The notes beneath the pieces were generated by a model. It made no database searches. It saw nothing but the letters and a program-made list of their open reading frames with translations, and was not told the origin of the DNA. The position numbers and the translations under genes are program-made. Of a stretch of DNA of 64,000 nucleotides, positions 33,701 through 55,269 are shown one piece after another (positions within the stretch are counted from its first letter, which is position 1; each line of letters opens with the position of its first letter). The stretch is from Bryobacterales bacterium (GTDB lineage Bacteria; Acidobacteriota; Terriglobia; Bryobacterales; Bryobacteraceae), in assembly GCA_020854055.1 (NCBI GenBank), contig JADZGD010000071.1, positions 1 through 64,000 of the forward strand, read 5' to 3'.

Positions 33701-34054
33701 CTCCTCTTTATGCGGCGGACGATACCAGCGGGCGCGCCAGCGCCACACCGAGACCTCGCCCTGCATGAGCCGGTTTGCCCGCTCCAGGCCGATTTCACGT
33801 TCCAGGTAGATGCGGGCGTCGTCGTCGGGGTCAAACAGGGTCAGGCTGCGGTAGCCCACCGGAGAGAAGCCCTGGGTTTGTAAAAATCGCTGCGCGGCGG
33901 TGGTGATCTGGTCTCGGGTCAGCTTCAGGTTTAAGGAAGCCTGCGGAAACGCGGCGGTGTAGTTGGCGGAAATGTAGATGGCGGAGGCTGCCGTAACCAG
34001 CAGAATCGCTCCAATCAGGAGGCGGTCATTGCGGCTGAGCTGGCTGGAGGGCAT
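30725..34054 (-). CDS. Large CPBP-family intramembrane metalloprotease with internal duplication
   Basis: About 1109 residues from the ATG at 34054, with two copies of a soluble plus membrane layout. Copy one is an N-terminal extracytoplasmic domain (about 40-230), then eight or so helices with CPBP protease motifs: EEFWFR, FLHANY and HYTVDA. Copy two repeats the soluble domain (about 620-800, with LPENWLRNF matching IPESWQRSF of copy one) and ends in a second helix bundle that lacks those motifs. CPBP proteins are Rce1-like glutamate/metal proteases. Gene is preceded by the putative RNA element at 34097-34203. An upstream in-frame start would run into the hairpin. Confidence 0.8.
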   Translation of the reverse strand: MPSSQLSRNDRLLIGAILLVTAASAIYISANYTAAFPQASLNLKLTRDQITTAAQRFLQTQGFSPVGYRSLTLFDPDDDARIYLEREIGLERANRLMQGEVSVWRWRARWYRPPHKEEFRVQLSPDGTVVGFSHPVPEASPGARLARDAAFQKAEAFLKSITSRPQRLIETQLIERPARCDYSFTWERQGFRVKEATYRINIVVQGDRIGEYREGLHIPESWQRSFAAMRSRNQLYALGAEALWVPLVIAAIVWVVISMRRHNIPWRRLLQVSLLVATLVVINQWNQLPFFFDHMPTSSHFANTLALGVLQAMGAGVAMFFYLIIPAAAGEPLYRAMLPSKLSLPGIFTLRGIYTKKFFLGTLTGYGFAAAHLAYVVAFYLIGRRFGVWSPQDVSYSDLISTWLPWIYPLATALMAAASEEFWFRLFAIPMLRQLFRWTPLALVVPALIWGFLHANYPQEPAYIRGVEVGLIGIAAGVLMLRFGIITTLVWHYTVDAVLMSTFLFQSENWYFRLSGVLVGGAVLFPLLISLAGYARRGSFKGDEQVLNSSLDRAAQLAEQESLPAGGGVESDAALPVPAPQRLWPKRWIYVAAVLAVTAGVFARPVIVGSWIRIGSAETRAEEVAGQALRTRGVDPTRWMRASRFLSNIGSAEFEYLREVAGIHSAEQILRQYTTSGVWVVRYFQPQRREQWQVILTAGAQLFRIDHELEETAPGPRLSSQDALQVADRFLAARGINPASYRLVDSEQEHRDNRTDHAFTWENLSFHAGEARARLSLRINGDEPSQFRKFLKLPENWLRNFNRPRLQAFLLPGLLGAIGLPALVVFLRRLSGRHAPGAPAHRYHWRAYLTVAGAGLALSALSSWNDSRLLFTAYDTATPLGNFMAQVWIMRLLGIVFLTLLALVAAMVVDVFWQLTLHGVRFNAPSVTTTLALAALFAAGTRLLVAIAQAVPGPWPSIPVWQVPGAGTWLPAITVLQHSFLALMAVTVVLAVALLGGRHFLTRRAQRVFIGVACFATAAGSAQTVQQFAAFAFLIAASIAVLLLVLRTCGGDLVSYVVAFYWAHLSSRVLVLLVQPDAALRWNGVLAAAVAITAGIWLILRSVPSRRAV

Positions 34055-34056
34055 CG

Positions 34057-34066
34057 CCAATATTGG
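34057..34066. repeat. Perfect 10-bp palindrome next to the CPBP start codon
   Basis: CCAATATTGG reads the same on both strands and ends two bases before the CPBP ATG. It could be an operator for a dimeric regulator or simply chance. Confidence 0.35.
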
Positions 34067-34089
34067 AGCATACGGCGTGTTCCCGCGCG

Positions 34090-34203
34090 TATACAGAAAT
34101 GCCCATCCTTGAAGGATGGGCATTTGAACCCCGACTCAGACGGGGCGATGTTTAAAGGGAGAATCAGATTCGACGGTATCGCAACCGTAAAATCTTTGCT
34201 GTG
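34090..34203 (-). ncRNA. Putative small RNA or leader with three stem-loops
   Basis: No protein is encoded between 34055 and 34423. On the minus strand a consensus promoter would start a transcript near 34203. It contains hairpin 1 (34166-34195; AGATT and ACGGT arms paired to ACCGT and AATCT across a small internal loop), hairpin 2 (34129-34145; CCCCG and CGGGG around a 7-base loop) and hairpin 3 (34097-34125), a perfect 12-bp stem with a TTCAA loop followed by TTTCTGT. This suggests an RNA of about 110 nt ending at hairpin 3, or an attenuated leader for the CPBP gene 43 bases further on. No known RNA family is recognised. Confidence 0.55.
34097..34125 (-). terminator. Perfect 12-bp hairpin, probable intrinsic terminator
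   Basis: Arms AAATGCCCATCC and GGATGGGCATTT are perfectly complementary around a five-base loop. On the minus strand the stem ends in TTTCTGT, a short U-rich tail. The A-rich 5' arm means it could also act weakly on the plus strand. Confidence 0.6.
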
Positions 34204-34209
34204 ATTTGG

Positions 34210-34238
34210 ATATTAGGCGGTCGGCGAGGTGAAGTCAA
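34210..34238 (-). promoter_or_regulatory. Consensus sigma70-type promoter for the putative small RNA
   Basis: On the minus strand TTGACT (34233-34238) and TAATAT (34210-34215) are separated by exactly 17 bases. This is the closest match to the housekeeping consensus noticed in the window and lies in a local AT-rich patch. The predicted start is near 34203. Confidence 0.65.
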
Positions 34239-34258
34239 GCAAAAAAGCCGGAGGCTCA
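34239..34258 (-). terminator. Weak intrinsic terminator after the membrane-protein gene
   Basis: On the minus strand a short GAGCC/GGCT stem with a TCC loop runs into six T residues. It lies about 165 bases after the stop at 34424 and directly before the promoter at 34210-34238. The short stem makes it uncertain. Confidence 0.4.
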
Positions 34259-34423
34259 ACTATGGCTCCAAATTATTGATAAGCAATAGTTTACAGCTTT
34301 AGCAACGGATGTAAAATTAATACCGGCGGTCTTCATTCTGGGCTTTTCGGCCTGTGGAAAACTGGCTAGAAGCCTGAATCTATTGAGGATTTCGATTTAA
34401 TCTCAACGTGGAAATTCTAGCCC

Positions 34424-35355
34424 TCAGCGGCGTTGTTGATCGTCGATATGCAGTACGATCATCGCTTCAGGTTCTCCTTTGGTGCCGGATAACTTCCTTT
34501 GTAGCAGACGGATAGCGGAAAACAGCAAGCCTGCGACGAGACAAAAAACGATCACGATTCCAGCCAGGGCGAAGATGCTAAGTAGCATGCTTCCGATGCT
34601 GCGAACCTGCTGGTTGGGAGTCCTCTCGTTCCAGGTGACCTGCGCCTGATACCTTACTTTGGACAGAACGATTTCGGCCACATCGCGCGTTGGGGCGCTG
34701 GTTACCACCGCGATCAGGGGGCCGTCACGCTTCACCATCACGTTGGATAGTTTTTGGAACTCGGGCATTTGCGCCCGGGCGATCTGGTGGCTCGGGTAGG
34801 AAAAGACAGTTAAACGCAAAGGGCCGGCTTTCGTTTTGTATTCCAGCGTCTCACCCTCGGTACCGAAGTGGAATCCGGCAGCTGATGGTGGGATTGAAGG
34901 AACGAACTTCGCCAGCGCCACGGGGCCTAGTATGTAGCGTGCGGAACCCGGAATGGGATCTTTAGGAAGAAAGCCTGGCAGTGGCGGCAGCGGAGACTGC
35001 TCCAGGCGTGGCAGCACGACATAGAGCTTGTCAAACTCGTTGCCGGCAGGTTTCGGACCTTGAAACTCCAGGATGTAGTTACCGAGCCGCATCAACCCTT
35101 TGGGTTGCGGCTTCTCGCCTTCGAGCCAGTCGAGAATCGCGAGCGCACCAGTGGAGTCTCGAGCGCGCCAGGCGGTAGCGAGCAGCTTTCCGTCTCCGTA
35201 CTCGGCCCGTTCACCGGCCTCGAAGCCATATTCGCCGGCGAGTGAGGCATCGGGAAGCGTTACCGTAGTGACCTTGCCGCGCGTAAGACCGTTCAGTTGC
35301 TGCGGCCAGATGGCGCCCCAAGCGGCGGGCGCGGCCAGCAACAACAGGAGCGGCG

Positions 35356-35371
<16 letters not shown>
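34424..35371 (-). CDS. Exported single-pass membrane protein, DUF6599-like
   Basis: A 315-residue protein with a Sec signal ([19 protein letters not shown]), a globular domain of about 240 residues and one C-terminal transmembrane helix ([24 protein letters not shown], about 262-285) followed by a basic cytoplasmic tail. I recall similar acidobacterial proteins under DUF6599, unchecked. The start at 35371 overlaps the secA 3' end by 16 bases; a start nine codons earlier would lengthen the signal with charged residues and is disfavoured. Cotranscription with secA suggests an envelope role, but no function is known. Confidence 0.75.
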
Positions 35372-38202
<2,831 letters not shown>

Positions 38203-54425: not shown

Positions 54426-54973
54426 GCGCCAACAAAGGAACCCCATTGATTGCACGCCCGGTACGCGAGTCGATCTCGGAGTATTCGGAACTGGCGCTGC
54501 CTAACGACGCCAACCCGCTCGGCAACCTGCTGGGTGGACGGGTGATGCACCTGGTCGACATGGCTGGCGCGATGGCTGCCATGCGCCACTGCCGCCGTCC
54601 GGTAGTGACCGCATCCATCGACAAGATGACCTTTTTGCGGCCGATCCATATCGGCCAACTGGTGGTGCTGCGGTCGTCGGTGAACCGGGTGTTCCATACC
54701 TCGATGGAAGTGGGGGTAAAGGTGACGGTGGAGGATCTGCAAACCGGCGACATCTTCCATACCTCGTCGGCCTACGTCACGTTTGTGGCTCTGGACGAAC
54801 GGGGGCATCCGACTGCGATAGCGGCGGTGATTCCGGAGACCGCCGACCAGAAACGGCGGTTTGAGGAGGCCGGCAACCGGCGGCAGTACCGTCTAGAACT
54901 CCGCGAAAAGGCATCCAATAGGAGATTCGCGGGCGGCACTAAACGGAGACGCGGCGGCTCTCAGGCCTTATAG
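54422..54973 (+). CDS. Hot-dog-fold acyl-CoA thioesterase (YciA-like)
   Basis: A 183-residue acyl-CoA hydrolase. The hot-dog motif [23 protein letters not shown] with the catalytic Asp lies near residues 36-58, followed by [16 protein letters not shown] and a beta-sheet with VTFVALDE. It would cleave acyl-CoA to free acid. The C-terminal 40 residues are basic. The start is a TTG overlapping the preceding stop (TTGA), with AGGAG 11 bases upstream; no better in-frame ATG is present before the domain. Convergent with hfq by 13 bases. Confidence 0.85.
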
Positions 54974-55269
54974 AGGTACTTGATATTACGCTTGTAAATC
55001 AGGAGATTTGGCCCCTCCTCCCGGTTTACTTTGATACAGGTGCGGTCGTACCATTCGATGACACCGTGAAGCAGTTCGCCGTCTTTGAGGACGATCACCA
55101 TCGGCGTTTTCGACTGCATCTGCTTGACGTAATAAAAATTCTCGGCGTTGGTTTGCTCCGGCGGCACAGACTTCTTCTGCGTGGCGCTCTGGCTGCTGCG
55201 TTTCGGATTCATTTGTTCCTTGAGCTCGTTCAAGGACGGGCGTATCAATTTCCGGTTTCCGGGCTCCAC
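54961..55269 (-). CDS. hfq: Divergent Hfq-like RNA chaperone with N-terminal extension
   Basis: A 102-residue Sm-fold protein. The Sm1 region (about 45-85) is [31 protein letters not shown]-like, and Sm2 is [13 protein letters not shown]. The core aligns with E. coli Hfq, but the YKH motif reads YKR and the distal-site Tyr (SIYLVNG) is Val (VIVLKDG). A basic 40-residue N-terminal extension replaces the usual short helix lead. Start is a GTG at 55269 with a perfect AAGGAG ribosome-binding site seven bases upstream. It probably binds RNA, with altered specificity. Confidence 0.85.

Follow-up and report, generated by a model that had tools for sequence, protein, structure and literature searches.

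The spacer between a conserved membrane protein gene and a CPBP protease gene in the window (the whole stretch of 64,000 nucleotides of Bryobacterales DNA analysed here) carries a promoter-like sequence followed by a run of hairpins on the minus strand, and raises the question of whether it harbours a small RNA (sRNA) gene in its own right or a regulated leader of the CPBP gene, both of which had been proposed in a preliminary description of the locus. Comparison of sequences makes it very likely that this is an independent, conserved sRNA gene whose product would pair in trans with the mRNA of one micropeptide, most likely blocking its translation.

The analysed unit extends from 34238 to 34090 on the minus strand (positions are those of the window throughout, Table 1). 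Its promoter, TTGACT-17-TAATAT, is present as described, and is counted as real because CTTGACTT and TAakATCCAA are conserved in about 30 orthologs. Its strength and its rarity within the window had been overstated, since it agrees with a simple consensus at nine of 12 positions and three further promoter-like sites lie less than 200 bp away. Promoter-like sites on both strands are seen at 34288–34317, in the spacer upstream of the sRNA, including a plus-strand TTTACA-16-TAAAAT that agrees with the consensus at ten of 12 positions.

Three hairpins fold 3′ of the promoter, confirming the reported region of about 110 nt with three stem-loops, with an energy of −58.3 kcal/mol compared to a shuffled mean of −38.3 kcal/mol (z = −5.0, none of 200 shuffles being as stable). 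The last hairpin is indeed perfect, and is larger than the 12 bp ascribed to it, consisting of two perfect 14-nt arms (34097–34110 and 34112–34125) separated by 1 nt, or 13 bp with a 3-nt loop. As expected for a trans-acting sRNA, the unit possesses its own promoter with conserved −35 and −10 elements and an intrinsic terminator with compensated pairs, its U-tail being weak here. Apart from its first base, the seed is unpaired with a probability of 0.7–0.99. The reported lack of an ORF is essentially correct, for although the CPBP frame is formally open from an ATG within the hairpin (34123), its sensible start is the ATG at 34054. The element occurs as a single copy in its own genome, where a covariance model of the RNA (R1) matches it at 34209–34089 with 105 bits. 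The window also encodes an Hfq-like protein, much as had been stated (ORF 54961–55269, minus strand, identified by eye alone), and Hfq may take part in the action of the RNA.

Table 1. Features of the sRNA locus and its syntenic markers (window positions)
Feature	Position	Strand	Remarks
secA (syntenic marker)	35356..38202	-	
Conserved predicted membrane protein, 5′ of the sRNA (syntenic marker)	34424..35371	-	No Pfam match
-35 element TTGACT	34233..34238	-	Preceded by a T-run; CTTGACTT with little or no variation among about 30 orthologs
-10 element TAATAT	34210..34215	-	17-nt spacer; TAakATCCAA kept in orthologs
Small RNA gene, about 110 nt	34090..34203	-	Ends inferred from the -10 position and the terminator
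P1, 5′ hairpin AGAUUUUACGGUUGCGAUACCGUCGAAUCU	34166..34195	-	Fold; covariation in the family and class-wide; in 74 sequences
Seed UGAUUCUCCCU, complementary to the micropeptide Shine-Dalgarno region	34156..34166	-	Unpaired except for the first base
Second pairing block AAACAUC, against GAUGUUU upstream of the target Shine-Dalgarno sequence	34147..34153	-	AACAUC conserved in the family
P2 hairpin GCCCCGUCUGAGUCGGGGU	34128..34146	-	Fold; compensatory changes in 5/5 pairs; missing in some relatives
Terminator hairpin AAAUGCCCAUCC.../...GGAUGGGCAUUU	34097..34125	-	Weak U-rich tail CUGUAU

Of 150 genomes of the window's own family (f1), 106 gave matches at E ≤ 0.1 when searched at the DNA level; most had a single match, and many E values fell between 1e-8 and 4e-19. 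In the covariance search suggested for related genomes, which covered 200 genomes of the order, R1 identified the RNA in 169 (139 of the 159 good ones), nearly always as one copy, with all matches in f1 save a marginal one (E = 0.04). Most of the named genomes recovered by a pattern scan were Bryobacterales, Bryobacteraceae or Solibacter records, so that f1 is probably Bryobacteraceae. The RNA pattern is also contained in records labelled Opitutaceae, Pseudomonadota and Acidimicrobiia (L138, L143, L162; 100–108 bits for L138 and L162), which are probably mislabelled or misbinned MAGs. Aligned orthologs retain the −35 and −10 elements, P1, a nearly invariant unpaired CUGAUUCUCCC and the terminator hairpin; the AACAUC block is kept in most of them, and P2 is variable and absent in some. 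The terminator varies in sequence (AAUGCUCACCC, AAGGGCCUAUCC, AAACCCGGCUG) with its pairing maintained, 11 of its 12 pairs exhibiting compensatory changes at 97% paired. When 70 family sequences were aligned to R1, paired cells made up 94.4% and 19 of 28 pairs had changed on both sides, cells changed on both sides numbering 165 as opposed to 41 in shuffles (a value reached by none of 500), and displacing the partner by 1–3 columns lowered pairing to 35–54%. The R1 alignment is fitted to the structure, while the MAFFT alignment A1, which is independent of it, gave 91.0% pairing with 16 compensated pairs (0/500 shuffles). Promoter and paired bases are conserved in orthologous spacers, the point on which the preliminary description had made its proposal depend, lending strong support to a small RNA gene.

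The genomic context of the RNA bears upon two other readings of the hairpins. A typical order of secA, conserved membrane protein and RNA is found in most of 41 genomes, and the membrane protein marker in 145 of 151 genomes of the class, whereas the gene 3′ of the RNA changes from genome to genome in its family and frequently in its strand, marking the RNA as independent of it; a conserved tie to one downstream gene, as in a cis-regulatory leader or riboswitch, was not found among these 41 genomes. For a regulated 5′ leader of the CPBP gene, an attenuator with the last hairpin as its terminator, one may cite the common strand, the distance of about 36 nt between hairpin and probable CPBP start, and the weak U-tail, which makes read-through into CPBP possible. 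However, CPBP orthologs in relatives reside on contigs other than that of the RNA, and the terminator hairpin closes the unit before a gene that differs in family and strand, so that this second proposal of the preliminary description is unsupported, contradicted by synteny and highly improbable. It is hardly conceivable that the element is the terminator or a repetitive palindrome of the upstream secA operon without a function of its own; a co-directional gene does lie upstream in most genomes, but the element has its own conserved promoter, a nearly invariant unpaired seed and a covarying partner mRNA (see below), and it is present as a single copy in the genome, on which account a repetitive palindrome was rejected.

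The independent sRNA gene is not restricted to f1. Weak R1 matches in family f4 (probably Acidobacteriaceae) are located 3′ of the same membrane protein as in the window, and in the DNA 3′ of this protein, read in 60 genomes of other families, the unit is found again in f4, f89, f90, f91, f92, f95 and f96, often in a shorter form consisting of promoter, P1, AUUCUCC(C/U) and terminator; at least six families other than f1 have such shorter syntenic forms. The predicted P1 of the 74 sequences has a mean energy of −15.4 kcal/mol, and can reach into the seed in f4 and f91. Class-wide pairing amounts to 91.1% (0/500 shuffles), 8 of 11 pairs being compensated in P1 and 11 of 12 in the terminator, and a second model, R2, finds the RNA in 45 of 46 f4 genomes among those listed. 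With the patterns used no syntenic RNA was found in f3, f93 and f94. In f5 (L274–L278) the membrane protein is followed by a promoter-like site with a hairpin, UUUUUCUCUUUACAACU and, next to a tRNA gene, a terminator; this unit may be a highly diverged form of the RNA. Strong R2 matches outside the class in family f25 (E ~1e-7) proved to be false positives, each a glutamine-type tRNA followed by a terminator, and the antisense strand was rejected as a model match since it matches through the palindromic terminator only. Because the better-scoring matches outside the class are of this tRNA-plus-terminator kind, the RNA is taken as confined to the class Terriglobia and present in most of its families.

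At gathering level, Rfam identified nothing but tRNAs in the window or in its relatives, and a cmscan of the element at E up to 10 gave a best chance match of 15.6 bits compared to a gathering score of 80, so that no Rfam family, including 6S RNA, accounts for it and a known RNA family was rejected. Among noncoding RNA candidates of Acidobacteria, Acido-1 (RF01686) and Acido-Lenti-1 (RF01687) are both in Rfam (PMC2864571) and differ from the present candidate in showing no match at E up to 10. The Solibacter-1 motif, which is outside Rfam, is listed for S. usitatus only (PMC2864571), and by this published listing alone contrasts with an RNA that is usually single-copy and occurs in many genera.

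A probable partner is indicated by the unpaired stretch CUGAUUCUCCC...AACAUC, which is complementary to the Shine-Dalgarno region of a gene located elsewhere in the genome and encoding a Lys/Ala-rich micropeptide (MKNATKKAAKPAAKKKAAPKKGKK in the window's genome, gene at G000:C20:19293). This gene, probably unannotated, has its own promoter-like site and hairpin terminator (G000:C20:19150–19450, L443; also loci L443–L482, L413–L418, L434–L442 and L483–L500), and its product, which is without a Pfam match, is 11–26 amino acids in length (longer in some genera), with a median of 21, 49% Lys and 31% Ala for the 40 read. In the f1 set all seven third codon positions vary, compared to three of seven first and three of seven second positions, and the Lys/Ala frame is kept class-wide, suggesting that the peptide is translated and matters. 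The sRNA and target genes are unlinked, lying on different contigs, and in the one-contig f4 genome G435 at 3.51 and 3.03 Mb, respectively.

The target search was based on patterns, with duplex energies computed for GGGAGAAT-type sites. The sequence GGGAGAAT-N-ATG occurs 17 times in the window's genome and 19 times in G435, as opposed to once in each for the reversed pattern, and in both genomes one such site precedes a Lys/Ala-rich ORF of 22–24 codons. The own-genome leader AUUUGAUGUUUAGGGAGAAUCAAUCG-AUG and the sRNA are predicted to form an 18-bp duplex with a 2-nt bulge (−25.8 kcal/mol), followed at −19.4 kcal/mol by the next best GGGAGAAT site of that genome. With no condition on the protein, the two-part f1 complement followed by ATG was found in 72 of 150 family genomes, almost always once and never in the reversed control (the other 78 are without the exact two-part site as written), and of 20 loci read from this search 19 were the micropeptide and one the antisense strand of the sRNA gene itself. 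A class-wide pattern of Shine-Dalgarno sequence and Lys-Lys-Ala start matched 118 of 200 genomes (a handful for the reversed control), part of these matches being unrelated genes, mainly in f91, f93, f94 and f5. A 126-aa Lys-rich protein of G435 (G435:C1:3726301, L410) also has a GGGAGAAU ribosome-binding site and matches DUF6496, and HC2 weakly (N-terminal part), so that the regulon may extend to other histone-H1-like genes. Genus g41 (L436, L438–L440) encodes a second, longer Lys/Ala/Pro-rich protein of 74–90 aa with a GGGAGAAUCA-type leader; at least one genome has both this gene and that of the micropeptide.

The sRNA and its predicted target covary, as seen in 39 genomes containing both partners, 36 of them with an intact core entering the family matrix. 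In most f1 genomes the perfect run is about 10 nt, with GAUGUU/AACAUC as a separate block; runs comprise 11–13 nt in f4, 9–19 nt in f90 (19 nt in G697 and G641, start codon included) and up to 16 nt in f92, where two of five genomes (G658, G631) match weakly or at a shifted position. The Shine-Dalgarno core GGAGAA is itself common, which makes some of the complementarity trivial. Own-family means for f1, f4, f90 and f92 are 9.8, 11.8, 16.0 and 14.3 nt, respectively, versus 7.0–9.7 nt when families are swapped, and the observed sum was reached in none of 5000 permutations, a figure that is not a strict probability because the genomes are related. Within f90, pairs from the same genome match better than pairs from different genomes (P = 0.0013), whereas within f1 and f4 the own-genome match is no better than that between genomes of the family, so that few covariation events are independent, namely those between families and those in f90. 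It is the contrast between families and the f90 signal that form the robust part of this result.

Two readings that retain the sRNA assign the micropeptide mRNA another place. The RNA could be a general anti-Shine-Dalgarno sRNA with a broad regulon in which the micropeptide is merely the best conserved target, a tenable if less favoured possibility in view of the nearly invariant core UUCUCC and the enrichment of GGGAGAAT-N-ATG in both genomes, with sites that by inspection include gpmA, tatA and DUF6496/HC2-like protein genes. Such sites are, however, also simply good ribosome-binding sites, and the second block and family-specific extension occur in the micropeptide leader only. Alternatively, the micropeptide mRNA may act on the sRNA, titrating it as a sponge or decoy instead of being its repressed target, as would befit a short mRNA that carries its own promoter-like site and hairpin terminator and matches the sRNA over as many as 19 nt; this is unlikely, since the codon-position variation and class-wide Lys/Ala frame indicate that the peptide matters, and the pairing is located on the Shine-Dalgarno sequence and AUG.

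Repression of the micropeptide by a dedicated sRNA would then proceed as follows. Transcription from its own promoter to the intrinsic terminator would yield an RNA of about 110 nt, in which two hairpins would expose the unpaired CUGAUUCUCCC...AACAUC stretch for pairing in trans with the Shine-Dalgarno region, and in some families the start codon, of the polybasic micropeptide mRNA. Pairing over Shine-Dalgarno sequence and AUG suggests a block of ribosome binding, and the most likely outcome would be arrest of micropeptide translation, with or without mRNA decay, so that the sRNA very probably controls the amount of micropeptide. Other mRNAs with GGGAGAA-type ribosome-binding sites might be weaker targets.

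This kind of mechanism, antisense control at the ribosome-binding site, is known, and it is the RNA family, its hosts and the polylysine micropeptide target that appear new. A C-rich single-stranded seed directed against Shine-Dalgarno sequences is also a feature of RsaE/RoxS and of the alpha-proteobacterial cuckoo sRNAs (UCCC and CCUCC motifs), which differ in hosts, structure and targets, the present RNA having no Rfam match. Type I antitoxin-like trans antisense RNAs repress small-protein mRNAs and share the long pairing (here up to 19 nt) with the Shine-Dalgarno/start region of a tiny-protein mRNA, whereas here the genes are unlinked and the peptide is polybasic rather than hydrophobic. 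The cyanobacterial sRNA Yfr1, with its ACUCCUCACAC motif (PMC2190773), is likewise a short, single-copy trans RNA in which two stem-loops flank an unpaired, strongly conserved CUCC-bearing motif, an arrangement reproduced by the core form of P1, seed and terminator, and is similarly conserved phylum- or class-wide with little sequence retained elsewhere. In contrast to Yfr1, the RNA described here belongs to Acidobacteriota rather than cyanobacteria, displays AUUCUCC(C/U) in place of the ultraconserved ACUCCUCACAC, and has motif flanks that covary with one mRNA, many forms adding a second block and an extra hairpin.

A literature search for Acidobacteria sRNAs or lysine-rich sRNA targets gave nothing relevant among the matches listed, and no published description of a regulatory sRNA and its target came to light for Acidobacteriota, one of the commonest soil phyla; the partner predicted here is backed by sRNA–mRNA covariation in at least four families. 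More speculatively, and with considerable doubt, the two genes might constitute a class-wide module in which an unlinked, dedicated sRNA restrains a polylysine micropeptide (~11–26 aa) resembling a histone tail, the peptide either acting on a polyanion such as the nucleoid or being toxic when unchecked. Through the sRNA a conserved micropeptide gene comes into view that would probably escape routine annotation and, if the proposed pairing is true, the two would represent a new trans-encoded antisense-controlled micropeptide system in Acidobacteriota.
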